DNA of 64,000 bases from Jatrophihabitans cynanchi (GTDB taxonomy: Bacteria > Actinomycetota > Actinomycetes > Mycobacteriales > Jatrophihabitantaceae). Shown here piece after piece: positions 479 to 22,907 of this stretch. The notes beneath the pieces are model-generated. The model was not told the origin of the DNA, did not search any database, and saw only the letters and a list, made by a program, of their open reading frames with translations. The DNA lies in assembly GCF_027247405.1 (NCBI RefSeq), contig NZ_CP097463.1, forward strand, positions 124,001-188,000. The letters are read 5' to 3'. Every line of letters starts with the position of its first letter. Within the stretch, counting starts at the first letter, position 1. The position numbers were made by a program, and so were the translations under genes.

Positions 479-1266
479 AGTTCGATCGTCCCGTCCAGCA
501 CGGTCACGGCCGAGCCGGTCAACACGACCCGGTCGCCCGCCACCCGGGTGCCGACCCGGCCACCGCGCCGGGAGGCCTGGTAGCCGAGGAGCGTGTCGCG
601 TCCCAGCTTCGCCGACCAGTACGGCGCAAGCACGGTGTGTGCGCTGCCGGTCACCGGGTCCTCGTTGACGCCGACGCGCGGCGCGAAGAACCGTGACACG
701 TAGTCGTATCCGCTGCCGGGTTCGGCGGCCGCGGTGACGATCACGCCGCGCGCCTCGACAGCGGCGAGTGCGCCGATGTCGGGACGCAACTCGCGCACCG
801 TCTGCTCGTCCGCGAGCTCGCACAGCAGGTCGTCGGTGCCGCCGCGTCCCACCCAGCGAGGCGTGCCGCCGAGCGCGGCGGACAGTCCGGGCGGCTCGGC
901 GCACTCGGTGGCCGGCCGGGCCGGGAAGTCCAGCGCGTACTCCTCGCTCGAGCGGTTCACGGTGAGGGTGCCGCTGCGGGTGTCGAACGCGACGGGCGAC
1001 GGGACACCGTCGGCGAACAGGCAGTGCGCGGTGGCCAGGGTCGCATGTCCGCACAGGTCGACTTCGGTGCCGGGGGTGAACCAACGCAGCCGGTAGCCGC
1101 CGGCGGACGGCACAGCAAAGGCGGTCTCGGACAGGTTCAGCTCGGCCGCGATCGCCTGCAGCACGGCGTCAGCAGGGTACTCGTCGAGCACCACCACGCC
1201 GGCGGGGTTGCCGCTGAACGGCTTGTCGGCAAAGGCATCCACGGTCCTGATTCGCACGCCGTTCAC
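475..1266 (-). CDS. PhzF family isomerase/epimerase-like protein
   Basis: This 263-residue protein is of normal length for the PhzF/diaminopimelate-epimerase-like fold. The N-terminus has [19 protein letters not shown]. The catalytic Glu is in NLSETAF, followed by [22 protein letters not shown]. The second half carries the matching [17 protein letters not shown]. PhzF proteins catalyse acid/base isomerisations; the substrate here is unknown. The GTG start at 1266 gives the canonical [12 protein letters not shown] beginning; longer versions of the frame run into hyuB. It overlaps hyuB by 4 bases upstream and the CoA-transferase by 4 bases downstream, so translation is probably coupled. The context suggests processing of the hydantoinase/oxoprolinase product. 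Confidence 0.88.
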
Positions 1267-7015: not shown

Positions 7016-8851
7016 ATGAATCGTCCGGTGTTCGCGGTAGCCGCCTGCCTGCTCGCCGCCCCCCTCGCTCTCGCCCCCGCGGCGGATGCGCACCCTCAGC
7101 ACCGCGGCCCGCATTACGTCAAGGAACCGGTCGCCACCGGATCCGGCGGCGCGGTCGCCTCGGCGGAGTTCCACGCCAGCGAGGCAGGCATCGACGTTCT
7201 CCGGAACGGCGGCAACGCGATCGACGCGGCAGTCGCGGTCGCGAGCACGATGGGCGTCACCGAGCCGTTCGTGGCCGGGCCGGGCGGCGGCGGCTTCATG
7301 GTCATCTACCTGGCGCGCACGCACCAGGTCGTCACCATCGACGGCCGCGAGCAGTGCCCGGCCGGCTGCACACCGCAGCTGTTCCTCGATCCGTCGACCG
7401 GCCGGCCGCTCGCGTTCGAGGAGGCGCGCCACTCCGGCCTGTCGGTGGGCGTGCCCGGCCAACCGGCGACCTGGGCCACCGCGGTGAACAGGTACGGCAC
7501 ACGCAGCCTCGCGCACGACCTGGAGCCGGCGATCGACCTGGCGCGGCACGGCTTCACCGTCCAGCCCGACTTCGTGCAGCAGGAGCAGGTGTCGCTTCCC
7601 GACCTGCAGGCGTTCACCACCAGCCGCAAGCTGTTCCTGACGCGCGACGGCCAGCCGCTGCCGGTGGGTTCGTGGTTCCGCAACCCGGACCTGGCGGCCA
7701 CCTACAGCGCACTGGCCCGGCACGGCGTGGGCTACCTCTACGGCGGCCGGCTCGGCAGCGAGGTCGCGCACACCGTGCAGCACCCGCCGGTGTGGAGCGG
7801 GACATCGTTCACGGTCCGTCCCGGCATCATGACCGCTCGCGACCTCGCGAACTTCACCACCCGGATCCAGCCGCCGACGCACGTGTCCTACCGCGGCCTG
7901 GACGTGTACGGCATGCCGACGTCGTCCAGTGGCGGCCTCACCACCGGCGAGGCGCTGAACATCCTCGCCGGCTACGACCTCAGCAGCGAGCCGCGCGCCC
8001 AGGCGCTGTTCCACTACCTTGAGGCGAGCCGGATCGCGTTCGCCGACCGCAACGCGTACATCGGCGACGACCGGTACGTGCCGGTGCCCGAGCAGGGCCT
8101 GCTCGACCCGGCTTTCGCGGCGGCACGGCGCTGCCTGATCGGTGACACCGCGCTGACCTCCCCGGTCGCGCCCGGCGTCCCCTACCCGCCGTACCAGGGG
8201 TGTCCCGCGGCGAGGGCGCAGGCGAACCCGGTGCACGAGGGCACGTCGACCAACCACATCGTCACCGCCGACCGCTGGGGCAACGTGGTCAGCTACACCA
8301 ACACCATCGAGCAGATCGCGGGCAGCGGCATGACCGTGCCGCACCGCGGGTTCCTGCTGAACAACGAGATGACCGACTTCGACTTCGCTGCTGCGACGCC
8401 GACGACGTACGACCCGAACCTGCCGGCGCCGGGCAAGCGACCGCGCTCGAGCATGAACCCGACGATCGTGCTGAAGGACGGCGCGCCCGCCTTCACGCTC
8501 GGCTCCCCCGGCGGCTCGACGATCATCACCACCGTGCTGCAGATCCTGCTCAACCACGTCGACTTCGGCATGTCCCTTCCGGACGCGATCGCGGCGCCGC
8601 GGGTCAGCCAGCGCAACACAGCGACGAGTCTGGCCGAGCCGGCCTTCTACACCAGCGCGCTCGCGCATCAGTTGACGTCGCAGTACGGCGAGCAGTTCAC
8701 CGAGGACACCGGGCCGGTGCTCCCCTTCGACGCGGAGATCGGCAACGCGACCGGAATCGACTTCCTCGGCCACGGGCGGTTCCAGGCGGCAGCCGAACCG
8801 GTGCGCCGCGGCGGCGGCAGCGCGCTGGTGGTGTACCCGGATCAGGGCTGA
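7016..8851 (+). CDS. ggt: Secreted gamma-glutamyltransferase
   Basis: This 611-residue Ntn-hydrolase precursor has a signal peptide (MNRPVFAVAACLLAAPLALAP, cleavage near ADA-H at residue 26). The large-subunit region has GGNAIDAAVAVASTMGVTEPFVAGPGGGGFM and IDGRE. The autocleavage site is in GTSTNHIVTADRWGNVVSYTNTIEQ. By alignment with TTHYSVVD of the E. coli enzyme the nucleophile is most likely Thr412, which would begin the small subunit. SSMNPTIVLKDG and GSPGGSTIITTVLQ complete the small subunit. It cleaves gamma-glutamyl bonds of glutathione and related compounds outside the membrane. It lies near the HyuAB oxoprolinase-like genes but on the other strand. Its end overlaps the convergent CoxG-like gene by 10 bp. 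Confidence 0.94.
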   Translation: MNRPVFAVAACLLAAPLALAPAADAHPQHRGPHYVKEPVATGSGGAVASAEFHASEAGIDVLRNGGNAIDAAVAVASTMGVTEPFVAGPGGGGFMVIYLARTHQVVTIDGREQCPAGCTPQLFLDPSTGRPLAFEEARHSGLSVGVPGQPATWATAVNRYGTRSLAHDLEPAIDLARHGFTVQPDFVQQEQVSLPDLQAFTTSRKLFLTRDGQPLPVGSWFRNPDLAATYSALARHGVGYLYGGRLGSEVAHTVQHPPVWSGTSFTVRPGIMTARDLANFTTRIQPPTHVSYRGLDVYGMPTSSSGGLTTGEALNILAGYDLSSEPRAQALFHYLEASRIAFADRNAYIGDDRYVPVPEQGLLDPAFAAARRCLIGDTALTSPVAPGVPYPPYQGCPAARAQANPVHEGTSTNHIVTADRWGNVVSYTNTIEQIAGSGMTVPHRGFLLNNEMTDFDFAAATPTTYDPNLPAPGKRPRSSMNPTIVLKDGAPAFTLGSPGGSTIITTVLQILLNHVDFGMSLPDAIAAPRVSQRNTATSLAEPAFYTSALAHQLTSQYGEQFTEDTGPVLPFDAEIGNATGIDFLGHGRFQAAAEPVRRGGGSALVVYPDQG

Positions 8852-9477
8852 CGGCGGCGCCCGGCCAGCACCCCGACGAGCACGCCGGCGAGCGCGATGG
8901 CCGCGCCGACCAGCGCGCCGCGGGCGAACTCGCCAGGGCGTCCGGACACTGCCGGGGCAGTGGGCGCGACGAACACGCCGGGCTCGGCCGGCGCCGTCCC
9001 GCCGATCACCGCCGGCCGCACGGCAACGGCGGGCGCGGTGCCGGTGAGCACGTCGTCGACGGCGCGGAAGAACTCGCCGGCCGTCTTCTTGGCGACCGCG
9101 ACCAGCATCCGCTGGCCGACCCCGGCCACGACTCCGCCGACAACGGCGTCCGCGTCGTAGCGGAGCCGGGTACTGCCGTCGCCGGCGTCGGCGAGAGCGA
9201 CCCGCACCTCGGTGCTCACCGTGCCCGGGCCGCCCGCGCCGGACGCGGTCATCAGGAACGAGCTCGGCGCCACCTGGTCGGACAGCTGCACCTGGCCGCT
9301 GTACGTTCCCTTGATCGAGGCCACTCCGGCGGTGACGGTCATCCGGTACGCGTCCGGGCCGGTCGACTCCAGCCGCTCGCAACCGGGAATCGTCCGCACC
9401 AGCACGGCGGGATCGTTCAGTGCCGCCCACACGTCCTGGACGGGTGCATGCAAGGTGGCCTCGCCACTGACTTTCAC
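8842..9477 (-). CDS. CoxG-like SRPBCC protein with C-terminal membrane anchor
   Basis: The protein has 211 residues. The START/SRPBCC fold covers about 1-145 (MKVSGEATLHAPVQDVWAAL, IPGCERLE, GTYSGQVQLSD, RLRYDADAVVGGVVAGVGQRML), which is the carbon-monoxide-dehydrogenase subunit G (CoxG) family. A low-complexity Ala/Pro linker leads to a single C-terminal hydrophobic segment (about 187-206) and an RRR tail, so it is probably membrane-tethered with the domain in the cytoplasm. CoxG proteins anchor or mature molybdenum hydroxylases. The GTG start at 9477 overlaps the stop of the molybdopterin subunit gene (GTGA), making it the last gene of the hydroxylase operon. Confidence 0.88.
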   Translation of the reverse strand: MKVSGEATLHAPVQDVWAALNDPAVLVRTIPGCERLESTGPDAYRMTVTAGVASIKGTYSGQVQLSDQVAPSSFLMTASGAGGPGTVSTEVRVALADAGDGSTRLRYDADAVVGGVVAGVGQRMLVAVAKKTAGEFFRAVDDVLTGTAPAVAVRPAVIGGTAPAEPGVFVAPTAPAVSGRPGEFARGALVGAAIALAGVLVGVLAGRRRQP

Positions 9478-11861
9478 GATCGGTTCCCTTCGGAGTGCTT
9501 GCGGCGCAGCTCGAACAGCTCGCTCGGCGAGATGGGCATGGCGGTGATCGGGAAGCCCTCGGCGTCCTCGATGGCGGCGGCGATCGCGGCCGCGCCGGGG
9601 ATGACGCCTGCCTCGCCGGCGCCCTTGATTCCCAACGGGTTGAGCGGCGAGGGCGTCTCGAGGTGATCGATCTCGATGCCGCGCGGGACCTCGGTCACGT
9701 ACGGCATCAGGAAGTCCATGAACGAGGCGTTCTGCAGCTGCCCAGCTTCGTCGTACGCCATCCGCTCGTACAGCGCCCCGCCGACGCCCTGCGCGACCCC
9801 ACCGTGGATCTGTCCCTCGACGATGCGCGGGTTGATCAGCGGGCCGCAGTCGTGCACCACGCAGTAGCGCAGGATCGTGATCTCGGCGGTGTCCGGGTCG
9901 GTCTCGACGATCACCGCGTGCATGCCGTTCGCGAACGTCGAGCGCATCGGCGAGAAGTAGTCGCGGCCCTCGACGCCCGGCTCGTCGTCCTCGCCCACCG
10001 GCGGCTTGCTGGTGTCGCCCACGGCGAACTGGGTCGCCGCCTGTGCCGAGTCGTCGAACGCGTAGCGCAGCGGGTTGGACAGCACCGCCACCGTTCCGAG
10101 GGAGATCTCCGCACCGGGCGAGCCGACCACGCGGACCACGCCGTCGACGATCTCCAGGTCGTCCGGATCGGCTTCGAGCGCGTCTGCGGCGACGCGCAGC
10201 GCTTTGGCGCGTGCGGCACGCGCGGCCAACGCGATCGCCGAGCCGCTCATCACCGCCGCCCGCGAGGCGAACGTCCCTACCGCGTAACCGAATCGCCGCG
10301 TGTCACCGGTAACCACCTCGACGTCCGACATCGGCACGCCGAGCTCGTCGGCGACGATCTGCGCGAAGACGGTCTGGTGCCCCTGCCCCTGCGTCGTCAG
10401 CCCGGTCGACACCTTCACCTTGCCGCTGGTCTCGACGACGACGTGCGCGCCCTCGTACGGGCCGACCCCGGTTCCCTCGACGTAGCAGGCGAGCCCGATG
10501 CCGACGCGCCGTCCCTCCGCCGCGGCCTGTGCCCGGTAGGCGGCGAACTCGTCCCAGCCGACGAGGTCCTTCAGCTTCGCCAGCGACGCCGGGAAGTCAC
10601 CGGAGTCGTAGATCAGCGGGCGGCCGTCCTGGAAGATCAGCCCGTGGTCGTAGGGCATCTCGTCCGGTCTGATGAAGTTGCGCTCGCGCACCGCGGTGCG
10701 GTCCAGGCCCAGTTCGCGCGCGATCGCGTCCATCACCCGTTCCATCACGAACACACCCTGTGGCCGGCCGGCGCCGCGGTACGGCGTGACGATCAGCGTG
10801 TTCGTGTAGAGCGAGTCGAACTCGACGCGGTACGCGCGCGGTTTGTACGGCCCGAGCAGCTGGGTCGAGGTGATGATCGGGACGATGAGCCCGTACGGGA
10901 TGTACGCGCCGTGGTCGTGCCAGAACCGCACGTCGAGCGCGAGCAGGTGGCCCTCGTCGTCGAAACCGGCCCGGACGTGGTGCTCCTGGGCGCGTTCGTG
11001 CGCGGCGGAGATGAAGTGCTCGCGGCGGTCCTCGACGAACTTGACGGGGCGGCCGAGCTGTCGCGCCGCCCAGGGCACCAGCACCTCCTCCGGCCAGGGG
11101 TGCACGATCTTGACGCCGAAGCCGCCGCCGACGTCCGGGGTGATCACGTCGACGTCCATCAGGGCGAGCCCGAGCTTGGCGGCCACCGCGGCGCGGACCC
11201 CGGTCGAGGTCTGGGTCGAGCTCCACATCCGCAGCCGGTGCGACTCGGTGTCCCAACGCGCGAGCACCCCGCGGCCCTCGAGCGGCGTGGACGCCGAGCG
11301 TTCCACGTGCAGGTCGAGCTCGAGCACGTGCGGCGCGCGGGCGAGCACGCCGTCGACGTCGCCGACCTGCTGCACCAGGTTGGCGGCCACGTTGCCCGGG
11401 ACGTCGGCGTGCACCAGGTGCTCGGCCGCGCGGGCGGCCGGGATGCCGACCACCGGCGGCAGCGGGGTGTAGCTCACCGTGATCTTGCCGGCGGCGTCCT
11501 CGGCCAGGTACCGGTTACGGGCGACGACCATGACGACCGGCTCGCCGACGTGCCGCACGACGTCGCGCGCCAGCGCGTACTGGGTGCGGCCCTGGGTGAG
11601 CGCCGGGTGCGGGATCAGCAGCGGCAACGGCTCGGCCAGCCGGTCGGGCAGATCCTCGTACGTGTAGATCGCGACCAGCCCGTCCACCTCGAGGGCGTCG
11701 TCGACGTCGATGCCGTCGACGCGGGCGTGCGCGTGCGGGCTGCGCACGAAGGCGCACTCGAGCGCGTCGTTGCCGAGGTCGTCGAGGTAGCCGCCGTGCC
11801 CGCGCAGCAGCCGCTCGTCCTCGACCCGCGCGACCGGTTCGCCGAACAGTCGCGTCGTCAT
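9474..11861 (-). CDS. Molybdenum hydroxylase large (molybdopterin) subunit, xanthine dehydrogenase / form II CoxL type
   Basis: This 795-residue protein starts FGEPVARVEDERLLRGHGGYLDD and has GGGFGVKIVHPWPEE, the active-site loop PYRGAGRPQGVF and the catalytic Glu in GIKGAGEAGVIPGAAAIAAAI near the C-terminus. The loop is not the AYxCSFR of true aerobic CO dehydrogenase (form I), so oxidation of CO is unlikely. The AYRGAGR-like loop is found in form II proteins and in xanthine/aldehyde oxidoreductases. It should combine with the downstream-encoded FeS and FAD subunits. The shared operon with an NCS2 xanthine/uracil permease makes a purine or pyrimidine the best guess for the substrate. The ATG at 11861 overlaps the FeS-subunit stop by 4 bases. 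Confidence 0.9.
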   Translation of the reverse strand: MTTRLFGEPVARVEDERLLRGHGGYLDDLGNDALECAFVRSPHAHARVDGIDVDDALEVDGLVAIYTYEDLPDRLAEPLPLLIPHPALTQGRTQYALARDVVRHVGEPVVMVVARNRYLAEDAAGKITVSYTPLPPVVGIPAARAAEHLVHADVPGNVAANLVQQVGDVDGVLARAPHVLELDLHVERSASTPLEGRGVLARWDTESHRLRMWSSTQTSTGVRAAVAAKLGLALMDVDVITPDVGGGFGVKIVHPWPEEVLVPWAARQLGRPVKFVEDRREHFISAAHERAQEHHVRAGFDDEGHLLALDVRFWHDHGAYIPYGLIVPIITSTQLLGPYKPRAYRVEFDSLYTNTLIVTPYRGAGRPQGVFVMERVMDAIARELGLDRTAVRERNFIRPDEMPYDHGLIFQDGRPLIYDSGDFPASLAKLKDLVGWDEFAAYRAQAAAEGRRVGIGLACYVEGTGVGPYEGAHVVVETSGKVKVSTGLTTQGQGHQTVFAQIVADELGVPMSDVEVVTGDTRRFGYAVGTFASRAAVMSGSAIALAARAARAKALRVAADALEADPDDLEIVDGVVRVVGSPGAEISLGTVAVLSNPLRYAFDDSAQAATQFAVGDTSKPPVGEDDEPGVEGRDYFSPMRSTFANGMHAVIVETDPDTAEITILRYCVVHDCGPLINPRIVEGQIHGGVAQGVGGALYERMAYDEAGQLQNASFMDFLMPYVTEVPRGIEIDHLETPSPLNPLGIKGAGEAGVIPGAAAIAAAIEDAEGFPITAMPISPSELFELRRKHSEGNRS

Positions 11862-12334
11862 GCCGACAGCTCCGCCGCGCGCAGCACGGCCTTGACGATG
11901 TTCTGGTAGCCGGTGCAGCGGCACAGGTTCCCGGCGATCATCTCGCGCGCCTCGTCCTCGCTCGGGTCGGGGTTCTCGCGCAACCCGGCCGTGATCGTGG
12001 TGAGGAACCCCGGCGTGCAGAACCCGCACTGCAGACCGTGGCAGTCGCGGAACGCCTGCTGCACCGGCGAGAGCGTGTCACCGGCGGCCAGCCCCTCCAC
12101 CGTGGTGATCCGCGCGCCGTCGACGCTCACCGCCAGCAACAGGCACGAGCGCATCGGCGCGCCGTCGACGAGCACCGTGCACGCGCCGCACACGCCGTGC
12201 TCGCAGCCGACGTGCGTCCCGGTGAGCTCGAGGTCGTGACGCAGGCAGTCCGACAGCAGCCGGCGGGCGGGAACCTGAAGGTCGTGGACCGCGCCGTTCA
12301 CGTCCAGCCGGATCTGGTGAAGTTGCTCGTTCAT
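11858..12334 (-). CDS. Molybdenum hydroxylase small (2Fe-2S) subunit
   Basis: This 158-residue protein carries two [2Fe-2S] clusters. The plant-type ferredoxin cluster is GCEHGVCGACTVLVDG plus a later C in SCLLLAV. The C-terminal helical cluster is GLQCGFCTPGFL and NLCRCTGYQNIVKAV. It passes electrons from the molybdenum centre to FAD. It sits between the FAD and molybdopterin subunit genes with ATGA overlaps on both sides, giving the common M-S-L gene order. Confidence 0.94.
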   Translation of the reverse strand: MNEQLHQIRLDVNGAVHDLQVPARRLLSDCLRHDLELTGTHVGCEHGVCGACTVLVDGAPMRSCLLLAVSVDGARITTVEGLAAGDTLSPVQQAFRDCHGLQCGFCTPGFLTTITAGLRENPDPSEDEAREMIAGNLCRCTGYQNIVKAVLRAAELSA

Positions 12335-13209
12335 GCGCGGCTCCGTTCCTGTGCCTGCCGGTAGGCGCCCTCCAGCGCGCGGGCGGTGAGCACGCCGGCG
12401 AGGTGCAGACGGTAGTCGGCGGTGGCGTGGATGTCGGCCTCCGGCTCGAGCTGCCCGCGCGCGGCGTCGGCGGCAGCCGCGAAGTCCGGCGCGGCCCCGG
12501 AACCCGGCACGGCGGCCTCGGTCAGGTCGAGCACCAGCGGCGTCGCCGAGACCGACAGGTACGCGGCACGTGCCGCCGAAACGGCCCCGGTGGCGTCCAG
12601 TTGGACGAGAGCGGCGACGCCACACACCGCGTAGTCGCCGTGCCGCCGCGCGACCTCGACGAACTCGGTGCCGGCACCCGCAGGCAGCACCGGGAAGCTC
12701 GCCTCGACCGCCAGTTCGCCCGCCTGCACCGCCGACTCCAGCGGCCCGAGGAAGAAGTCGCCGGCTGCCACGTCGCGCGCGCCGCCAGCCGAGGCGACCC
12801 GCACCGTGCCGTCCAGCAGCGCGAGCACGGCGGTCATCTCGCCCGCGGGGTCGGCGTGCGCCAGGCTGCCCACGGTCGTGCCGCGGTTGCGGATCGTCGC
12901 GTGGGCGACCAGCCGCAGTGCGGTACGCAGCAACGGCTGCGCCCGGTAGGCGTCCTCGTCCGCGAGAACGTGCGCGTGCCGGGCCAGTGCGCCGACCCGC
13001 ACCGCCTGCGCGTCGACCCGGACGTAGTCCAGTTCGTGCAGCCGGTTGATGTCGACGAGGTGATGCGGGGCGGCCAGTCGCATGGACAGGATCGGCAGCA
13101 GCGACTGGCCGCCCGCGAGCACCTTGCCGTCGGCACCCAGGTCGGCGAGCGTCGTCAGGGCTTCGGCGACGGACTCCGGCCTGGAGTAGCCGAACGGTGG
13201 CGGTTTCAC
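12331..13209 (-). CDS. Molybdenum hydroxylase medium (FAD-binding) subunit
   Basis: This 292-residue protein has the FAD-binding motifs of the CoxM/xanthine dehydrogenase family: KVLAGGQSLLPILSMRLAAPHHLVDINRL and ATIRNRGTTVGSLAHADPAGEM. The family C-terminal domain follows (VEVARRHGDYAVCGVAALVQLD). The GTG start at 13209 gives VKPPPFGYSRPESVAEAL. It overlaps the permease stop (GTGA), so uptake and oxidation of the substrate are co-transcribed. Confidence 0.93.
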   Translation of the reverse strand: MKPPPFGYSRPESVAEALTTLADLGADGKVLAGGQSLLPILSMRLAAPHHLVDINRLHELDYVRVDAQAVRVGALARHAHVLADEDAYRAQPLLRTALRLVAHATIRNRGTTVGSLAHADPAGEMTAVLALLDGTVRVASAGGARDVAAGDFFLGPLESAVQAGELAVEASFPVLPAGAGTEFVEVARRHGDYAVCGVAALVQLDATGAVSAARAAYLSVSATPLVLDLTEAAVPGSGAAPDFAAAADAARGQLEPEADIHATADYRLHLAGVLTARALEGAYRQAQERSRA

Positions 13210-14690
13210 TCCGGCCCGGAACCCTCCGTCGCGAACGGGGACAGTTCGCCCTCGGGTGTCTCCACGTTGCCCGTCGAGAGCATGGCACCACCCTCGTAGC
13301 CGCGCCCGGCGCCTTGCGGTTCGATGCGCAGGTGCTGCGGTGCCAGCCACCGGACGAAGTGGTAGAAGACGATCGCGAAGATCGTGCCGAGTGCGATGCC
13401 GCTGATCGAGAAGTCGTTGGTGAACTTCAGCGACACGCCGCCGATTCCGGCGATCAGCGCGGCGGCGAGCGGCACCAGGTTCACCGGGTTGGCGAAGTCG
13501 ACGTGGTTCTCGATCCAGATCTTCGCACCGAGCAGGCCGATCATCCCGTACAGCACCACGGTGATGCCGCCGAGCACGCCGCCCGGCGTCGCGCTCACGA
13601 TCGCCCCGAACTTCGGACAGAAGCCGAGCAGGATCGCGACGACGGCAGCCACCCAGTACGCGGCCGTCGAGTAGACCCGGGTGGCCGCCATGACGCCGAT
13701 GTTCTCGGCGTAGGTGGTCGTCGGGGCGCCACCGACCGCGCTGGCGATCGCGGTGCCCACACCGTCGCCGATGAACGCCCGGCCGAGGTACGGGTCGAGG
13801 TTCTCGCCGGTCATCTCGCTGACCGCCTTGACGTGCCCGGCGTTCTCGGCGATCAGCGCGATCACGCTGGGCAGGATCAGCAGGATGAACGTCATCGAGA
13901 AGCTCGGGCCGTGCCAGCCGACGATCTGCTCCTTGCCGTCTGCCGCGAACACCGACTTGTGCGGGAAGCCGAGCCAGTCGGCGTTCTTCACCCCGGTCCA
14001 GTCGATCCGGTGGTGCGGCTTGGGGCCGCTGCCGTCCGGTAGCACCGAGTTGATCTTGCCGAAGATGTGGTCGAACGCCCAGGACAGGCCGTAGCCGAAC
14101 AGCAGGCCGAGGAAGATCGCGATCCGGGACCAGAAGCCCCGGAACAGCACGGCCGCCGCGATCACGAACGCCATCGTGAGCAGGCCGATCCACTCATCCT
14201 GCGGCCAGTACACGCCCGCGACCACCGGCGCCAGGTTGAAGCCGATCAGCATGACCACCGCGCCGGTGACGGCGGGCGGCAGCACCTTCTGCACGATCCC
14301 GCCGCCGGCGAAGTGCACCACGATGCCGACCAGGACGAGCACCACGCCGGCCACCAGGATCGCTCCGGTGACCTCCTTGGAGTTGCCGCCCTGCGCACGC
14401 ACGGCCGCCACACCGGCGACGAACGAGGCCGAGGTGCCGAGGTAGGACGGCACCTTCCCGTTCACGATGAACAGGAAGATGATCGTCGCGACACCGGACA
14501 TCATGATCGCGAGGTTCGGGTTCAGCCCCATGATCACCGGGAAGACGAACGTGGCCCCGAACATGGCCACCACGTGCTGCGCGCCGAGCCCGACGGTGCG
14601 ACCCCACGAGAGCCGCTCGCCGGGGCGTACCACCTCGCCGGGCGGAGGCGTCTTGCCCCCGTACACCAGCTTCCAGCCAAAAGCAGACAT
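13206..14690 (-). CDS. NCS2 family uracil/xanthine permease
   Basis: The 494-residue integral membrane protein has about 12-14 hydrophobic segments. NCS2 signatures are present: QHVVAMFGATFVFPVIMGLNP in TM1, TSASFVAG in the half-helix, AENAGHVKAVSEMTGENLDP in TM8 and GGAPTTTYAENIGVMAATRVYS in TM10. The overall pattern is nearest to UraA-type nucleobase:proton symporters; xanthine or uracil are the likely substrates. It is the first gene of a five-gene operon with the molybdenum hydroxylase. The ATG at 14690 follows a 156-bp region with inverted GCTCAC repeats. Hydrophilic tails at both ends are usual for the family. Confidence 0.92.
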   Translation of the reverse strand: MSAFGWKLVYGGKTPPPGEVVRPGERLSWGRTVGLGAQHVVAMFGATFVFPVIMGLNPNLAIMMSGVATIIFLFIVNGKVPSYLGTSASFVAGVAAVRAQGGNSKEVTGAILVAGVVLVLVGIVVHFAGGGIVQKVLPPAVTGAVVMLIGFNLAPVVAGVYWPQDEWIGLLTMAFVIAAAVLFRGFWSRIAIFLGLLFGYGLSWAFDHIFGKINSVLPDGSGPKPHHRIDWTGVKNADWLGFPHKSVFAADGKEQIVGWHGPSFSMTFILLILPSVIALIAENAGHVKAVSEMTGENLDPYLGRAFIGDGVGTAIASAVGGAPTTTYAENIGVMAATRVYSTAAYWVAAVVAILLGFCPKFGAIVSATPGGVLGGITVVLYGMIGLLGAKIWIENHVDFANPVNLVPLAAALIAGIGGVSLKFTNDFSISGIALGTIFAIVFYHFVRWLAPQHLRIEPQGAGRGYEGGAMLSTGNVETPEGELSPFATEGSGPE

Positions 14691-14846
14691 TCGCGTCGCC
14701 CCTTCTGCGGACCCGCATGATCGTCTCGCCGGCGCGCTCACTGTGAGCACGCTCACCGAGACGGTAGGGCCGCCGTCAACGGCCGATCATTGTGCAAATC
14801 TGACGAAGGCCGAGGGATGTTGCTGGCGCAGATAGGAAAGTGTCGT
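14691..14846. promoter_or_regulatory. Permease/hydroxylase operon control region with GCTCAC/GTGAGC repeats
   Basis: This region lies between the PucR-family gene and the permease. At 14736-14756 it has GCTCAC, T, GTGAGC, AC, GCTCAC: two overlapping inverted repeats sharing the middle half-site, 46 bp upstream of the permease start. It is a plausible operator of the permease-hydroxylase operon, perhaps bound by the adjacent PucR protein. Neither the binding nor a -10/-35 pair is proven by the sequence. Confidence 0.45.
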
Positions 14847-16544
14847 TCACAAACCGCGCATTTGGACGACCCGCAGCGCCAGCGCCACGTCCAGCCGCAG
14901 GTTCGCGTCCGACGTGAACGGGCCGATCATCGTCTCCAGCTTGGTGATCCGGTAGCGCAGCGTGTTGTAGTGGAAATGCAGTGAGCGCGCCGTCTCGGCC
15001 ACGTTGCAGTTGCGGTCGAGCAGCTCCTGCAGCGTGCCGCGCAGGTCCAGCGCGTCGGGCGTGTCCGCGCCCAGCGGCCCCAGCACCTCGGCCGCGAAGG
15101 CCCGCAGCTCGCCGGGATCGCTGACGAGCGAGAGCACCCGGTGCACACCGAGCCCGTCGAAGTGGGCGACCGCGCCGGGTCCGTGCGTCCGCCGCCCGAC
15201 CCGGACCGCAGTGCCGGCCTGCTCGTACGCGGCAGCCAGGTCGGCGATCGAGCCGATCACCCTGCTGACGCCGGTGCTGAACGAGCGCCGCCCGCCGCCG
15301 CGATCGCCCGCGACCGACGACACCAGCTCGGCGACGGTGCGCTGCACGGACTCCGGCTCGGCGGGCACGAGCGCGACCAGTTCGTGGGTGAACCCGACGA
15401 CCGGCACCGCGCGGTCGCGGGCACGCAGTACCTGCTCCCAGGCCGCCGTCAGCCGGTCCATCGGCGTGCGACCTGCCACGCTGGCCGGCCCGGACGACTC
15501 GTCCAGCCGGGCGACGATGACGGCGAGCGGCCGGTCGACGTCCCAGCCGAGCTGCGCGCAGTGCTCGGTCACCAGCTCGGGTGGACCGGCCACGCCGTTG
15601 AGCGCGTCGCGCAGGAAGTCGCCGCGAAACTTCGACTCGACCGCCGACACTGCCAGCTGCTTGGTGATCGCGAGCGCGGCGACGGTGGCGGCCCGCTCCA
15701 GCGCCTGCACGGTGACCGGCCCGAGGCCGCCGTTCGGCCCGTATGCGGCGATCAGGCCGTGGTCGGTGCCGCCGGCGATCACGCGGGCGACGGCGAGCTG
15801 CCCGCCGGTGGCGTCCGGCGCGTCCTGCAGCCCGGCGTGTACCTGCTCGGTGCGGAACCGGCCGGACGGGTCGAACAGCGGCAGCGCCGCGAGGGCCGCC
15901 GAGTTCGCCTCGGCGCCACCGGTGGTCTGCACCCGCCCGTCCGGCGAGCAGATCAGCACGGCGGTGTCGAACAGGGCAGCCACCTCTGCGGCGATCTGCG
16001 GCAGGTCGCCGCCGCCGAGCACGAGCGCGGTCAGCGTGCGGTGCAGCCGGTCGGCGACGTCCAGCGCCCAGGTCTGCCGGTCGACGAGTTGCGTGAACAC
16101 CTCGGACATCACCTCGTCGAAGGCGACGCCCCGAGGCAGCACGAGCACCGGAAAGCCGTGCCGCTCTGCGGTGTCGAGCATGTCCGGCGGGAGCTCGTCC
16201 AGGTAGCGGCCGGTCTTGACGCCGAGCGCGCTGACCCCGCGTTCGGCCAGCCCGTCGACCAGCCGGGCGACCACGGACGGGTCGAAGGTGCCGCCCTGCC
16301 CGCCGTGGCGCAACGGGAAGCCGGTGGTCAGCAGCAGCTCGTTCGGCTTGACCCACGGCAGGATGTCCGGAACCTCCATGACGTTCACCCAGCGCACCAC
16401 GGTGTCCAGGCCGGCAGCGCCCGCAGCCACCTCGGCACCGGCCAGGCTCGGCAGTGCGAGCAGCCCGCGAACCGTGAGGGCGTAGTCGGCGGCCACTGGC
16501 AGATCACGTCGCTGCGGCGGCACAACGTTGGCAACGTTCTCCAT
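14847..16544 (-). CDS. PucR family transcriptional regulator
   Basis: About 565 residues. The N-terminal PucR sensory domain (about 20-150) has LTVRGLLALPSLAGAEVAAG, VNVMEVPDILPWVKPNELLLTTG and LGVKTGRYLDELPPDML. A GGDEF-like middle region follows. The C-terminal HTH_30 domain has LRGTLQELLDRNCNVAETARSLHFHYNTLRYRITKLETMIG. PucR proteins control purine catabolism genes, and the flanking genes (permease, molybdenum hydroxylase, AllFGH-like set) match this role. A GTG at 16553 would add three residues. It is divergent from the DUF2877 gene with only about 36 bp between starts, so one bound regulator could control both directions. The codons just after the start contain AACGTT twice. Confidence 0.92.
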   Translation of the reverse strand: MENVANVVPPQRRDLPVAADYALTVRGLLALPSLAGAEVAAGAAGLDTVVRWVNVMEVPDILPWVKPNELLLTTGFPLRHGGQGGTFDPSVVARLVDGLAERGVSALGVKTGRYLDELPPDMLDTAERHGFPVLVLPRGVAFDEVMSEVFTQLVDRQTWALDVADRLHRTLTALVLGGGDLPQIAAEVAALFDTAVLICSPDGRVQTTGGAEANSAALAALPLFDPSGRFRTEQVHAGLQDAPDATGGQLAVARVIAGGTDHGLIAAYGPNGGLGPVTVQALERAATVAALAITKQLAVSAVESKFRGDFLRDALNGVAGPPELVTEHCAQLGWDVDRPLAVIVARLDESSGPASVAGRTPMDRLTAAWEQVLRARDRAVPVVGFTHELVALVPAEPESVQRTVAELVSSVAGDRGGGRRSFSTGVSRVIGSIADLAAAYEQAGTAVRVGRRTHGPGAVAHFDGLGVHRVLSLVSDPGELRAFAAEVLGPLGADTPDALDLRGTLQELLDRNCNVAETARSLHFHYNTLRYRITKLETMIGPFTSDANLRLDVALALRVVQMRGL

Positions 16545-16580
16545 GGGGCGCACCGTACGCCTGCCGTAGCTTCGCTAACC

Positions 16581-17372
16581 ATGCAGATCCGCGCAGCCGC
16601 CAGCAGCGCGCTGCGCGACCTGCTCGCCGGCCCGCCCGTGCCCGCCCGCCTGCTCGGCTCGGGCCCGTACGCGCTCTACCTCGGCACCGACGACGCCGTC
16701 GTGGCGGTGCTGGCGCGCGACGCCGTGCGCCTGCCCTGTTCCCTCACCTTGAGCACGTCTTCGGCCGAACTGCCGCTGACCTCGCTCGATGTGCGCGATG
16801 CGGTGTCGGTCGGCGAGGGCGCGATCCGCTGGACGGGACGCGCCGGGCCGGGCGCTGTGCTCGTCGCACGGCACTGGGCGCCGGCGCGAGTCCGCAAGGG
16901 GACGAGCATTCCGATCGACAGATGGCGCTCGGCCCTGTCCGCGTTCGACTGCGGCGTGGAAGCCCGGCTGATCGGCGGCCTGACGGTCGGCTCGTGCGAC
17001 CTGGCCGGTTCGCTGTTGGGCCGGGGACCGGGCCTGACGCCGGCCGGTGACGACGTGCTCGCCGGGTTCCTGCTCGGCACCCGAGCCCTCGGGGTCCCCG
17101 CCGGCCCGCTCGGCCGGTTCGTCGCCGAGCAGGCGCCGGCCGCGACGACCGCGCTGTCCGCGCAACTGCTGCGTCACGCGATCCGCGGCGAATGCGTGCC
17201 GCAGGTGGGCGCCGCGCTCGCCTCCCCCGGAGACACGAGCGCGCTCGTCGCGCTGCTCGCGGTGGGCCACACGTCCGGCACCGCCCTGGCACGCGGCCTG
17301 CTGCGGGCGGCCGAGTACGCCGCGGGCGTCGGCGCTGCGACGACGACCGCGGCGACGACGACCGCGGCGTGA
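16581..17372 (+). CDS. allH: DUF2877 protein, oxamate carbamoyltransferase AllH-like subunit
   Basis: This 263-residue protein carries the DUF2877 signature LLGRGPGLTPAGDDVLAGFLLG (about 150-171). DUF2877 is the E. coli YlbF/AllH family, which forms oxamate carbamoyltransferase with AllF (FdrA) and AllG in the last steps of anaerobic allantoin breakdown. Here it is followed directly by FdrA and DUF1116. The C-terminus ends in a low-complexity Ala/Thr tail made by a 15-bp direct repeat. A -10-like TAGCTT lies 8 nt before the ATG and no SD is evident, so a leaderless transcript is likely. It is divergent from the PucR gene. Confidence 0.82.
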   Translation: MQIRAAASSALRDLLAGPPVPARLLGSGPYALYLGTDDAVVAVLARDAVRLPCSLTLSTSSAELPLTSLDVRDAVSVGEGAIRWTGRAGPGAVLVARHWAPARVRKGTSIPIDRWRSALSAFDCGVEARLIGGLTVGSCDLAGSLLGRGPGLTPAGDDVLAGFLLGTRALGVPAGPLGRFVAEQAPAATTALSAQLLRHAIRGECVPQVGAALASPGDTSALVALLAVGHTSGTALARGLLRAAEYAAGVGAATTTAATTTAA

Positions 17373-17386
17373 CGGCGGAGGCGATC

Positions 17387-18850
17387 ATGGCGGTGGAGCA
17401 CGTCGAGGCGCGCCAGGGTGCGTACGCCGACTCGGTCACCCTGATGCAGGTCAGCCGGCGGGTCGCGGCCGCCGACGGCGTCAGCGCGGCCCTGGTCGCG
17501 ATGGGGACGCCGCTCAACCTCGACCTGCTGGACGGGATGGGTTTCGCCACCCCGGCCGGCGCCGGCCCGAACGACCTGGTGATCGCGCTGCGGGCCGAAG
17601 ACGCCGCGGCCATCGCCGGCGCGCTCACCGAGGTGGCCGACGCCCTCGCGGCGCGGCCCGGCGGCGGCGACGGGCCGGTGGCCGCCCTGCCGCCACGCAC
17701 CGTCGGCATGGCGGCGCGCGAGGCCGGAGCGGCTCTCGCCCTGATCTCGGTCCCCGGACAGCACGCGTTCACCGAGGCGATGGACGCGCTCGACGCCGGC
17801 TGCAACGTGATGATCTTCTCCGACAACGTCCCGGTAGAACAGGAGATCAGGCTCAAGGACGTCGCGTCCGACCGCGGCCTGCTGGTGCTGGGCCCGGACT
17901 GCGGGACGGCCGTGGTCGGTGGCATCGGGCTCGGCTTCGCGCACACCGTCGCACCCGGGCCGGTCGGGATCGTGGCGGCGTCCGGGACGGGCGCGCAGCA
18001 GGTGCTCTGCCTGCTCGACGCGGCCGGGGTCGGCGTCACCGCGGCGCTCGGGGTCGGCGGGCGGGACCTGTCCGCCGCGGTCGGCGGCCGCTCCACGCTG
18101 GCCGCGCTGGACGTGCTCGACCGCGACCCGGCCACCGAGCAGATCCTGGTGATCTCCAAGCCGCCGGCCGACGAGGTCGCCGCGACGGTGCGCGCCCACG
18201 CGGACCGGCTCGGCACGCCGGTGCAGTTCGCCCTGCTGGGCCCCGGGCAGCCGGACCTCACCGCGGCGACCGAGGAGTTGCTGCGCGCGCTGAAGGTCGA
18301 CGTACCGCAGTGGCCGCACTGGCCGGGTCGCGAGGTCGCGCCGCGCCGCGGAGCGCTGGTCGGCCTGTTCGCCGGCGGGACGCTGTGCGACGAGGCGATG
18401 CTCATCGCCGGCGAGCGGTTCGGCCCCATCGCCTCCAACATCCCGCTGCAGCCGCAGTGGCGCGTGGACCCCCGCGCCGAGTGGGACGGCCGGCACGTCC
18501 TGCTGGACTTCGGCGACGACGAACTGACCGCCGGCAGGCCGCACCCGATGATCGACCCGTCGTTGCGGCTGGAGCGGCTGGCCGCGTACGGCACCGACCC
18601 GCGCACCGCCGTGCTGCTGCTCGACGTGGTCCTCGGCCACGGGGCGCACCCCGATCCGGCGGCCGAACTCGCGCCGGTGATCGCCGAGTTGGGCGGGCCG
18701 GCCGTCGTCGTCTCGCTGATCGGCGCCAAGGCCGATCCGCAGGACCTGTCCGCGCAGGCCGCCGCACTTCGCGGCGCCGGTGCCCACGTCTACGTCTCGA
18801 ACGCGGCCGCCGCCCGATTCGCCTGCGACCTGATCGGGAGCACCTCGTGA
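17387..18850 (+). CDS. fdrA: FdrA (AllF)-like acyl-CoA synthetase-fold protein, oxamate carbamoyltransferase subunit
   Basis: About 487 residues. It begins MAVEHVEARQGAYADSVTLMQVSRRV, the typical FdrA start, and continues with SVPGQHAFTEAMDALDAGCNVMIFSDNVP, LGPDCGTAVVGGIGLGFAH and VAASGTGAQQVLCLLDAAGVGV. The latter is a succinyl-CoA-synthetase-like CoA-ligase fold with no ATP-grasp domain. FdrA/AllF is a component of oxamate carbamoyltransferase. I prefer ATG 17387 because GGAGG ends 5 nt before it. An alternative GTG at 17369 would overlap the DUF2877 stop by 4 bases. It overlaps the DUF1116 gene by 4 bases, so the three proteins are probably made together. Confidence 0.87.
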   Translation: MAVEHVEARQGAYADSVTLMQVSRRVAAADGVSAALVAMGTPLNLDLLDGMGFATPAGAGPNDLVIALRAEDAAAIAGALTEVADALAARPGGGDGPVAALPPRTVGMAAREAGAALALISVPGQHAFTEAMDALDAGCNVMIFSDNVPVEQEIRLKDVASDRGLLVLGPDCGTAVVGGIGLGFAHTVAPGPVGIVAASGTGAQQVLCLLDAAGVGVTAALGVGGRDLSAAVGGRSTLAALDVLDRDPATEQILVISKPPADEVAATVRAHADRLGTPVQFALLGPGQPDLTAATEELLRALKVDVPQWPHWPGREVAPRRGALVGLFAGGTLCDEAMLIAGERFGPIASNIPLQPQWRVDPRAEWDGRHVLLDFGDDELTAGRPHPMIDPSLRLERLAAYGTDPRTAVLLLDVVLGHGAHPDPAAELAPVIAELGGPAVVVSLIGAKADPQDLSAQAAALRGAGAHVYVSNAAAARFACDLIGSTS

Positions 18851-20238
18851 AGACACTGGACGGCGAGCCGACCCTGATCACCGCCGGCGCCGACCTGTTC
18901 GCCGACGCCGCGCAGGCCCAGGCGGCTCGCGTCGTGCGCGTGGACTGGGCCCCGCCGATGCCCGGCACCGAGGCCGATCTCGCCGCCGTGATGGGCGATC
19001 CGCGCCGCGCCGGCGCGAACGCCGAGGCGCTGCGCCGGGTCGCGTCGGCGCGGGCGCTGCTCGTCGACGTCGTGCCGGCACGCGAGGCGCTCGGGCTGGC
19101 CGACCGGCAGCTGCTGCACGCCGGGCCGCCGATCGAGTGGGCGCGAACGTCGGGCCCGATGCAGGGCGCCCTGCTCGGCGCCGCGGCCTTCGAGGGGCTC
19201 GTGGCCGATCCCGCCGACGCCGCGGCGTACTACGAGCGCGGCGAGTTCACCCTGGAGCCGTGCCACCACCACAGCGCCGTGGGCCCGATGGCCGGCGTGC
19301 TGTCGGCGTCGATGTGGGTGTGGGTGCTGGAGGACCCGCAGACCGGGCGCCGCGCCTACTGCTCGCTCAACGAGGGGCTGGGCAAGGTGCTGCGCTACGG
19401 CGCGTACTCCCCCGAGGTGCTGGACCGGCTGCGCTGGATGGCGACCGTGCTCGGCCCCGCGCTGCAGCTGGCGGTGCGCGGGCACGGGCCGGTGGACATC
19501 ACCGCGATCCTCGCGCAGATGGTGCAGATGGGCGACGAGGCGCACAACCGCAACCGGGCCGGGACGCTGATGCTGCTGCGCGAGCTCGGCCCCGACCTGG
19601 TCGAGGCCGGCCTGCCGTCGGCCGACGTCGCCGCGGTGTTGCGCTTCGTCGGCGGCAACGACCACTTCTTCCTCAACCTGGCGATGCCGGCCTGCAAGCT
19701 CGCGCTCGACGGCGCGCGCGGCATCGCCGGCTCGACCATGGTCGTCGCGATGGCCCGCAACGGCACCGACTTCGGCATCCAGGTCGCCGGCACGGGCGAC
19801 GACTGGTTCACCGGGCCGGCGCAGGTGCCGGACGGGCTGTACCTCGGCGACTACGGCCCCGAGGACGCGAACCCGGACATCGGCGACTCGGCGATCACCG
19901 AGACCATCGGCCTGGGCGGCTTCGCGATGGCCGCCGCTCCCGCGATCGTCCGGTTCGTCGGCGGGACGGTCAGCGACGCGCTGGCCAACACCCGCCGGAT
20001 GTACGAGATCACCCTGGGCGAGCACCCCGCGTTCGCGGTGCCGGTGCTGGACTTCCGCGGAACGCCGCTCGGAATCGACGTCACCAAAGTCGTGCGCACC
20101 GCCATCTTGCCGCAGATCAACACCGGGATGGCCGGCAAGATCGCCGGCACCGGGCAGGTGGGCGCCGGGCTGGTCACCCCGCCCGCCGAGGCGTTCGGCA
20201 CGGCGCTGCGCGCACTCGCGGCTCGCGTCCCGCGCTGA
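18847..20238 (+). CDS. allG: DUF1116 protein, oxamate carbamoyltransferase AllG-like subunit
   Basis: This 463-residue DUF1116 protein contains FTLEPCHHHSAVGPMAGVLSASMWVWVLED, CSLNEGLGKVLRYGAYS, MGDEAHNRNRAGTLMLLRELGPDL, FVGGNDHFFLNLAMPACKLALD and MVVAMARNGTDFGIQVAG. DUF1116 is the YlbE/AllG family and is found beside FdrA and DUF2877, as here. The GTG start is inside the FdrA stop (GTGA). No carbamate kinase gene, which recovers ATP from carbamoyl phosphate in E. coli, is present in the window. Confidence 0.87.
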   Translation: MKTLDGEPTLITAGADLFADAAQAQAARVVRVDWAPPMPGTEADLAAVMGDPRRAGANAEALRRVASARALLVDVVPAREALGLADRQLLHAGPPIEWARTSGPMQGALLGAAAFEGLVADPADAAAYYERGEFTLEPCHHHSAVGPMAGVLSASMWVWVLEDPQTGRRAYCSLNEGLGKVLRYGAYSPEVLDRLRWMATVLGPALQLAVRGHGPVDITAILAQMVQMGDEAHNRNRAGTLMLLRELGPDLVEAGLPSADVAAVLRFVGGNDHFFLNLAMPACKLALDGARGIAGSTMVVAMARNGTDFGIQVAGTGDDWFTGPAQVPDGLYLGDYGPEDANPDIGDSAITETIGLGGFAMAAAPAIVRFVGGTVSDALANTRRMYEITLGEHPAFAVPVLDFRGTPLGIDVTKVVRTAILPQINTGMAGKIAGTGQVGAGLVTPPAEAFGTALRALAARVPR

Positions 20239-20314
20239 GGGTGCCCTGGCGCGGTTCACATGCCACGCTGGGCCGCACTCCGTACCGTGGGTGCGGACGC
20301 GTGAGGAGCAGCCG

Positions 20315-20746
20315 ATGACGACACCGCCACCGGACGACCAGCCGACAGCAGCCGTGCCCGAACCCGAGCCGGCGGGCCCACCACCAGGCCAGCACTACCC
20401 GTTCGGGCCGGCGCCGCAGCCGTACCCGTTCGCCCCGGTCTACCGGGCGCCCCGCGAGCCGTGGGTCAACCCCGCCCGGCGGGCCGGCGTCGCCGGGCTC
20501 GCGGCCGCCGCGCTGCTGCTGGCGATCGGGCTGGGCGTGCTGATCGGCTGGGCCGCGTTCAGCGGCGGCGGCCACGAGCACCGGATGTACCAGGACGGGT
20601 ACGGCCGGATGTACCGCGCGCCGGACGGCTACGCGCCCGGCATCCCGGGGCATCCGCGGCTGCATCCCGGCAAACCTGGCGGAAAGCAGCCCGGCGTGAG
20701 CCCGACCTCGCCTGCCCCGAAACCCTCGCCGACCCGCACCAGCTGA
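20315..20746 (+). CDS. Proline-rich single-pass membrane protein, unknown function
   Basis: A 143-residue protein with a Pro/Ala-rich cytoplasmic N-terminus (about 1-55), one strong hydrophobic segment (GVAGLAAAALLLAIGLGVLIGW, about 60-81) and an external His/Gly/Tyr/Pro-rich tail ending in a Ser/Thr/Pro stretch. The ATG at 20315 has a GAGGAG site 6 nt upstream. No domain is recognised. Similar small Pro-rich membrane proteins are common in actinobacteria. It lies 36 bp upstream of glgX and may be read with it. Confidence 0.72.
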   Translation: MTTPPPDDQPTAAVPEPEPAGPPPGQHYPFGPAPQPYPFAPVYRAPREPWVNPARRAGVAGLAAAALLLAIGLGVLIGWAAFSGGGHEHRMYQDGYGRMYRAPDGYAPGIPGHPRLHPGKPGGKQPGVSPTSPAPKPSPTRTS

Positions 20747-20782
20747 CACCGCCGTCGGGCCGCGGAGCCGATCTGGCAGGCT

Positions 20783-22906: not shown

Positions 22907-22907
22907 C

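Follow-up and report, generated by a model that had tools for sequence, protein, structure and literature searches.

A predicted barbiturate route of uracil breakdown with a putative phosphorolytic second half in Jatrophihabitans cynanchi and other actinobacteria

A 64,000-nucleotide stretch of the Jatrophihabitans cynanchi genome (assembly GCF_027247405.1, contig NZ_CP097463.1, positions 124,001 to 188,000; hereafter the window) encodes an NCS2 permease, a three-subunit molybdenum hydroxylase and a CoxG-like protein. Across a PucR-family regulator gene from these, and divergent from them, lie three genes for homologs of E. coli AllF (FdrA), AllG (DUF1116) and AllH (DUF2877), together AllFGH. 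What compound would such a gene set degrade? A sequence-only reading of the window had proposed that a purine is imported and oxidized and that AllFGH completes allantoin breakdown in the role of oxamate carbamoyltransferase. Pfam and NCBIfam scans confirmed the nine genes it named, their order and divergent arrangement, and their tight spacing, with 4-base overlaps between neighbors from CoxG through the permease and from AllH through FdrA to AllG. Our analysis gives a different answer: the locus probably serves oxidative breakdown of uracil, a pyrimidine, via barbiturate, with a phosphate-splitting second half that yields adenosine triphosphate (ATP).

Proposed pathway and its enzymes

The minus-strand run that contains the hydroxylase genes passes the left window edge (genome position 124001), and its next genes, read from flanking genome sequence, encode a carboxyltransferase-like fusion, carbamate kinase, a ring-opening amidohydrolase and an amidase (Table 1). 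Carbamate kinase had been reported as absent; its gene lies in the same run, with a match at genome position 120841-121761, 2.2 kb beyond the edge and about 22 kb from AllG, and seemed to be missing because the window edge cuts the run. The ring-opening enzyme scored 681 bits against the solved barbiturase 5hwe, which we take to be from Rhodococcus erythropolis, versus at most 326.5 bits against cyanuric acid hydrolases, and by sequence it is classed as a predicted barbiturase and not as a cyanuric acid hydrolase. It also exceeds the cut-off of the cyanuric acid hydrolase model of NCBIfam (482 bits, cut-off 360), which listed no barbiturase model. Genomes scoring 680-687 bits against this barbiturase carry genes of 84-85% identity.

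In the proposed pathway, uracil would be imported by the NCS2 permease and oxidized to barbiturate by the three-subunit molybdenum hydroxylase, aided by CoxG. Barbiturase would open the ring to give ureidomalonate (N-carbamoylmalonamate), which AllFGH would split with phosphate into malonamate and carbamoyl phosphate; carbamate kinase would convert the latter to ATP, CO2 and ammonia. Malonamate would be cleaved to malonate and ammonia by an amidase, which belongs to one of three unrelated families depending on the lineage. In some lineages, malonate might further be converted to malonyl-coenzyme A (malonyl-CoA) and acetyl-CoA via a CoA-transferase and the carboxyltransferase-like protein, and PucR would control the whole set. 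Barbiturase, carbamate kinase, the subunits of AllFGH and of the hydroxylase, and their linkage are assigned by sequence comparison, whereas uracil, ureidomalonate and malonamate are put forward as likely substrates of the hydroxylase, AllFGH and the amidase, respectively; the malonate steps and the control by PucR are guesses from annotation. HyuAB, of the ATP-dependent hydantoinase/oxoprolinase family, and the PhzF-family protein encoded in the same run have no place in this model; HyuAB may act on another kind of ring, for example 5-methylbarbiturate derived from thymine.

Pyrimidines are preferred to purines because barbiturase is encoded in the run, uricase is lacking, and the hydroxylase is nearer to quinoline oxidoreductase than to xanthine dehydrogenase. 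For uricase, the genome gave no match to PF01014, the one urate-oxidizing family tested, with 2 of 14 controls positive. Among solved structures, the hydroxylase scored highest against quinoline 2-oxidoreductase (1t3q, 439 bits), followed by 6-hydroxypseudooxynicotine dehydrogenase (428) and carbon monoxide (CO) dehydrogenase (374), with xanthine dehydrogenase at 164 bits or less. The NCBIfam XdhA model gave 403 bits, below its cut-off of 780, and these scores speak against the claimed purine oxidation. Quinoline 2-oxidoreductase hydroxylates a nitrogen heteroaromatic ring, and uracil is the natural reading for the substrate of the window's enzyme. Its large subunit exceeds NCBIfam model NF040766 (CODH_aero_grp5, aerobic CO dehydrogenase group 5; 1510.6 bits, cut-off 950). 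Aligned to 1n5w, it has PYRGAGR at residues 360-366 in place of the YRCSFR stretch of CoxL and lacks the active-site cysteine; the motif of aerobic CO dehydrogenase, (A/S)YRCS(F/L)R, was not found in it. PYRGAGR occurs in 74 of 76 aligned large subunits, the window's included, and PYRGFGY in the other two.

The best NCBIfam profile of the permease is that of RutG, a pyrimidine transporter (356 bits, below the cut-off of 759). Further hints of pyrimidines come from other genomes: the run of G264 includes a cytosine permease above its cut-off (387 bits, cut-off 326) adjoining a small deaminase that is nearest to TadA, under the cut-off, and an amidohydrolase occurs in four of 33 mapped barbiturase regions (G043, G313, G328 and Embleya), the two scanned being nearest to cytosine deaminase models, below their cut-offs.

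E. coli AllFGH converts oxalurate and phosphate to oxamate and carbamoyl phosphate, according to the accessible part of PMC11326118. Ureidomalonate, the product of barbiturase, is an analog of oxalurate one carbon longer. The AllG protein of the window shares 50% identity with E. coli YlbE across the aligned part; among near-invariant polar residues, defined as at least 97% constant in the AllG and FdrA alignments, the E. coli row keeps 18 of the 20 found in AllG and 30 of the 32 found in FdrA, and these shared residues fit the same chemistry as in E. coli AllFGH. A phospho-histidine in FdrA, considered by analogy with succinyl-CoA synthetase, is not proposed, because the GHGAHPDP stretch corresponds to GFGATADP in E. 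coli.

An AllG tree of 66 sequences with a midpoint root was built; G225 sits on a long branch in it, and the letter composition of the E. coli rows drew a flag; the rows taken from the 80 AllG loci described below were those with numbers divisible by four and AllG pieces of at least 330 residues. Of 26 rows labeled for barbiturase, 24 fall in one group of 43, with support of 94/93, just below the mark of 95/80 set by the program, and of 99/97 without G316 and G367. The other 19 rows of the group are loci read no more than 10 kb out, and the remaining two labeled rows are plasmid cases (Aminobacter and Citrobacter). The labels require eight changes on the tree, because rows of the bait set were read no more than 10 kb out and are mostly unlabeled. 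This pattern favors, without proving, a branch of the AllG family that splits ureidomalonate. The chromosomal AllG of E. coli falls outside the barbiturase-linked actinobacterial group, which, with uricase lacking, argues against the allantoin and oxamate role claimed for AllFGH. A more distant AllG subfamily with conserved neighbors of its own was seen in G085, G146 and G226.

Linkage and loss of the genes among actinobacteria

Of 581 relatives in named genomes found from AllG as bait, the best 80, all actinobacterial, were retained; 58 of these loci extend at least 9.9 kb to the left of AllG. The flavin adenine dinucleotide (FAD), iron-sulfur (FeS) and molybdenum (Mo) subunits of a related hydroxylase were each found in 54 of the 58, the permease in 55 and the PucR gene in 51; in 56, matches to the permease, FAD or FeS subunits were present and all lay on the strand opposite AllG. 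This supports the hydroxylase, permease, PucR gene and AllFGH as one conserved unit, together beyond chance. The idea of one combined locus is thus supported; its purine and oxamate interpretation is not, given the barbiturase in the run and the lack of a uricase match.

In a sample of 396 actinobacterial genomes, for which the Fisher p values ignore kinship, the barbiturase/cyanuric acid hydrolase family was found in 25 genomes, AllG in 50 and the hydroxylase family above its cut-off in 25. AllG accompanied the barbiturase family in 23 of 25 genomes (p 2.5e-21) and the hydroxylase in 25 of 25 (p 4.9e-26), and the hydroxylase occurred with the barbiturase family in 21 of 25 (p 3.8e-27). Matches to CODH_aero_grp5 form two groups, the upper one, with these 25 hydroxylase carriers, at 1129 bits or more and the other at no more than 719 bits. 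Barbiturase and AllG lay on the same contig in 19 of the 23 genomes, 3.3-44 kb apart. The two barbiturase-family genomes without AllG (G106 and G238) carry genes only 39% and 42% identical to that of the window's genome. In the taxonomic order of the window's organism, barbiturase was matched in 87 of 347 genomes, with at least 76% identity in 86, and AllG was present in 75 of the 80 tested among the 87.

The arrangement of the genes, as distinct from their frequency, was mapped in 33 actinobacterial barbiturase regions from AllG-bearing genomes (G106, G238 and two plasmids were excluded); 14, including the window's own, were picked for a nearby carbamate kinase and 19 by barbiturase plus AllG. 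Carbamate kinase is encoded in 30 of the 33, and in 16 of the 19 not picked for it. A hydroxylase subunit was found in 29 regions, FdrA or AllG in 25 (the other eight are cut short), HyuA or HyuB in 18, a CoA-transferase in 15, the carboxyltransferase-like gene in five, and PhzF in the window's run only. HyuAB is conserved near the window's lineage and was not seen in several distant runs. The three unrelated types of amidase, distributed by lineage, are the amidase-signature, carbon-nitrogen hydrolase and asparaginase types, one of which is present in 22 regions. In four distant genomes (G066, G171, G313 and G081) a single same-strand run, interspersed with one to four further genes, reads barbiturase, permease, carbamate kinase, AllH, FdrA, AllG, FAD, FeS, Mo, CoxG. 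Three more (G343, G328 and G323) show the same order as far as the contig ends, and all six regions of G633, G678, G576, G507, G463 and G655 contain barbiturase, carbamate kinase, FdrA and AllG. Gene order varies between lineages, with linkage kept. The run is shortest in G316 and G367, where barbiturase, FdrA and AllG are accompanied by a distantly related hydroxylase of 29-31% identity that carries the motif PYRGFGY; in G316 a thiolase gene comes next.

AllG is lacking from three genomes in which barbiturase, the hydroxylase and HyuAB are present: G613 and G611, each a single contig, and G568. A search for carbamate kinase at E 1e-30 found none in these three, nor in G106, G238 and G555, which have distant barbiturase-family genes; the same search found it in 9 of 10 AllG-bearing genomes. 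Matches above 300 bits were present in 46 of 47 AllG-bearing genomes (two of the 47 being one genome). AllG and carbamate kinase were lost in step in G613, G611 and G568.

Weighing other explanations

Several observations count against uracil breakdown with a phosphorolytic step. In the published oxidative pathway, as far as the accessible text of PMC3758960 goes, ureidomalonase gives urea and malonate. In G089, G187 and G207, the hydroxylase (53% identical), HyuA, HyuB, FdrA and AllG form one run, and a barbiturase-family match was found in none of the three genomes; HyuAB stands in its place and may act there as the ring opener. Elsewhere, too, HyuA/B could open the ring or split ureidomalonate, and therefore another job would be left for AllFGH, whose substrate is assigned from gene context. 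The amidase of the run gave 27 matches at E 1e-40, none named malonamidase, the nearest being GatA and acylamidases, so that the names of its closest solved relatives lend no support to a malonamidase identity. No amidase was found in 11 of the 33 regions, eight of which are cut by contig or stretch ends, while those of G117, G316 and G367 are uncut. Carbamate kinase and AllG do not always go together: G301 has AllG without carbamate kinase, G021 has AllG with a weak carbamate kinase match only, and G002 (470 contigs) has barbiturase and carbamate kinase without AllG. Finally, the permease of G343, the one scanned from the distant runs, has the xanthine permease model as its best match, below the cut-off (234.7 bits, cut-off 414).

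The frequency of HyuA/B and its replacement of barbiturase in G089, G187 and G207 would be accommodated if the downstream pathway were the same and the hydroxylase and permease served mainly thymine, cytosine-derived compounds, 4-hydroxypyrimidine or a wider range of cyclic ureides, with HyuAB opening rings that barbiturase refuses. We consider this unlikely, as the barbiturase of the run speaks for barbiturate, which is what uracil oxidation yields. Moreover, barbiturase is inactive on cyanuric acid according to the accessible part of PMC4051656 and is therefore not a general ring opener. Less probable still is a barbiturate route in which ureidomalonate is hydrolyzed to urea and malonate, the published end products in the available text of PMC3758960, by HyuAB, the amidase or the carbon-nitrogen hydrolase, with AllFGH acting on another ureide. 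The carbon-nitrogen hydrolase is weakly similar to N-carbamoyl amino acid hydrolases (79 bits), and since three genomes have barbiturase, hydroxylase and HyuAB but neither AllG nor carbamate kinase, there is probably a route that does without AllFGH; the urease alpha subunit was found in two of these three genomes versus 9 of 27 AllG-bearing ones in the same search. Against hydrolysis in the window's organism, however, stand the presence of AllG in nearly all genomes with a barbiturase-family match (23 of 25 and 75 of 80, as above), the joint absence of AllFGH and carbamate kinase from G613, G611 and G568, and the failure to find the urease alpha subunit in the window's genome.

The original proposal, purine import and oxidation with AllFGH as an oxamate carbamoyltransferase that ends allantoin breakdown, draws on the homology of AllFGH and on the PucR family and NCS2 permease, which are common in purine loci, but we now hold it to be very improbable: to the barbiturase, the missing uricase and the distance of the hydroxylase from xanthine dehydrogenase is added that no allantoin gene was seen among the scanned genes of the run. 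Hardly credible at all is the identification of the hydroxylase as an aerobic CO dehydrogenase with unrelated neighbors. Its score over the NF040766 cut-off and its CoxG neighbor would agree with this, but YRCSFR of CoxL is replaced by PYRGAGR in nearly all aligned sequences and every carrier above the cut-off in the 396-genome sample has AllG. In addition, form II enzymes with the motif AYRGAGR have no resolved CO activity as far as the accessible text of PMC13240472 states. Uracil breakdown via barbiturate, with phosphorolysis of ureidomalonate, is thus the reading that we retain.

Gene layout, related systems and implications

The features of the locus are listed in Table 1. The HNH/DUF222 and gamma-glutamyltranspeptidase genes, which split CoxG from HyuA and are seen in no other mapped region, look like insertions in the minus-strand run. 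The transpeptidase was considered as an HpxW-like oxamate amidohydrolase and rejected: it scored 339 bits against transpeptidase 4y23 versus 50 against 5hft, which we take to be HpxW although its structure record names it gamma-glutamyltranspeptidase, and it lies above the TIGR00066 cut-off. Among the matches listed for the 80 AllG-bait loci, none covered 30% of this protein. A scan for terminators and promoters 3' of AllG (20150-20800) found none. To the right of AllG lie two apparently unrelated genes of glycogen/trehalose type, presumably resembling glgX and treY, the second with a Pfam alpha-amylase domain.

Table 1. Genes of the locus and its flanks. Window positions count from the first letter of the window, and start codons of the window genes are our choice; PF06545 and PF11392 are now named AllG and AllH in Pfam.
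Feature	Window position	Genome position	Strand	Remarks
Amidase (amidase-signature protein)		118275-119693	-	same run
Predicted barbiturase (ring-opening amidohydrolase)		119698-120810	-	same run
Carbamate kinase		about 120835-121761	-	same run
Carboxyltransferase-like fusion (AccD- and AccA-like halves)		121846-123333	-	continues the minus-strand run
CoA-transferase family III (CaiB type)	1-478, cut by left window edge	123330-124478	-	Pfam CoA_transf_3, 216.6 bits (in-window part)
PhzF-family protein	475-1266		-	Pfam PhzC-PhzF, 221 bits
HyuB, ATP-dependent hydantoinase/oxoprolinase family, beta part	1263-3134		-	Pfam Hydantoinase_B, 465 bits
HyuA, ATP-dependent hydantoinase/oxoprolinase family, alpha part	3131-5239		-	Pfam Hydantoinase_A, 289.5 bits
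HNH/DUF222 gene	5369-6730			
Gamma-glutamyltranspeptidase	7016-8851		+	opposite strand to the CoxG run
CoxG-like protein, presumably a hydroxylase assembly factor	8842-9477		-	Pfam COXG, 86 bits
Molybdenum hydroxylase large (Mo) subunit, proposed uracil dehydrogenase	9474-11861		-	MoCoBD domains; NCBIfam CODH_aero_grp5
2Fe-2S subunit of hydroxylase	11858-12334		-	Fer2 and Fer2_2
FAD subunit of hydroxylase	12331-13209		-	FAD_binding_5 and CO_deh_flav_C
NCS2 permease, proposed uracil importer	13206-14690		-	Xan_ur_permease, 253 bits
PucR-family regulator, proposed for both directions	14847-16553		-	PucR, GGDEF_2 and HTH_30 domains
AllH (DUF2877), subunit of carbamoyltransferase-like enzyme	16581-17372		+	Pfam AllH, 70.9 bits (cut-off 25)
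AllF (FdrA) subunit	17369-18850		+	Ligase_CoA domain; FdrA subfamily model 393 bits, below cut-off 433
AllG (DUF1116) subunit, with AllF and AllH the proposed ureidomalonate-phosphorolyzing enzyme	18847-20238		+	Pfam AllG, 325 bits
Two glycogen/trehalose-type genes	20783-25202			

The gene set resembles several known systems. With the oxamic transcarbamylase system of E. coli, AllFGH-AllK, as presented in the accessible part of PMC11326118, it has in common the three subunits, the linked carbamate kinase and the near-invariant polar residues; the E. coli genes, however, are linked to allantoin genes and those of the window to barbiturase and a molybdenum hydroxylase, and the window's AllG is off the E. 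coli branch. With the oxidative pyrimidine pathway of barbiturase and ureidomalonase (available parts of PMC3758960 and PMC4051656), it shares barbiturase, as a close relative of the solved enzyme; the window locus would differ in splitting ureidomalonate with phosphate, which yields carbamoyl phosphate and malonamate, where the known pathway hydrolyzes it to urea and malonate, and it adds a candidate gene set for the first oxidation. Genes allFGHK beside biuret and triuret genes in comammox bacteria and ammonia-oxidizing archaea (PMC12625717) likewise place AllFGH and carbamate kinase after ureide reactions and apart from complete allantoin loci; in the accessible text of that paper, which was not among the barbiturase papers found, oxalurate is the proposed substrate and molybdenum is not mentioned. 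The hydroxylase resembles form II CO dehydrogenase-like hydroxylases and CODH_aero_grp5, whose model cut-off it exceeds, but it lacks the active-site cysteine and is linked to barbiturase and AllFGH. The label "aerobic CO dehydrogenase large subunit" that NF040766 gives to a family without this cysteine is probably a misnomer that affects many actinobacteria. The nearest solved structure remains that of quinoline 2-oxidoreductase, while the substrate proposed here is uracil.

Similar sets occur on plasmids of proteobacteria. Plasmid pSR8 of Aminobacter sp. SR38 (8972-14065) carries in a row FdrA, DUF1116, a cyanuric acid hydrolase (810 bits to 5t13, presumably TrzD) and carbamate kinase, possibly the phosphorolytic end of s-triazine breakdown. 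A Citrobacter freundii plasmid (10040-17681) has a cyanuric acid hydrolase-like gene (582 bits to 6bum versus 327 to barbiturase), an NCS2 permease, DUF2877, FdrA, DUF1116 and carbamate kinase; further out, the run is flanked on each side by a copy of IS26, and mercury-resistance genes are nearby. On an E. coli plasmid (4816-10374), an annotated cysteine hydrolase accompanies DUF2877, FdrA, DUF1116 and carbamate kinase; an isochorismatase-like gene, recognized by eye, is also near AllG in G095, G119 and G347. In the tree, neither the AllG protein of the Aminobacter plasmid nor that of the Citrobacter plasmid belongs to the actinobacterial group, and the two are separate from one another as well; it therefore seems that AllFGH with carbamate kinase became associated with ring-opening hydrolases on more than one occasion. 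A broader view, for and against which we are evenly divided, is that AllFGH forms a general ureide-splitting module behind ring-opening hydrolases, with carbamate kinase gaining ATP (from uracil via barbiturase in actinobacteria, and from cyanuric acid, the last ring of s-triazine herbicides, on proteobacterial plasmids), and that CO dehydrogenase group 5 comprises the missing uracil dehydrogenases.

The sequence-only reading had called a combined locus of this type little described, and our literature search agrees: it found no paper on the unit, which does not prove priority, as subscription papers mostly lay outside the search. Within this mainly open literature, no title or abstract opening was found that links barbiturase with FdrA/DUF1116 or with a molybdenum hydroxylase. 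If the proposed pathway is correct, it would provide candidate genes for the first oxidative step of pyrimidine breakdown and for the step after barbiturase, both of which are, to our knowledge, known as activities without genes. Phosphorolysis of ureidomalonate would be an added reaction, saving an ATP where the published route makes urea. The pathway would be present in many actinobacteria, including the 86 of 347 genomes of the window's order with a barbiturase at least 76% identical; in a 2012 survey cited in the accessible text of PMC3758960, the barbiturase/cyanuric acid hydrolase family was found in 3% of 6423 genomes. A further implication would be that the label aerobic CO dehydrogenase, given by one NCBI model, does not fit the proteins that bear it, which would touch surveys of CO uptake by soils.

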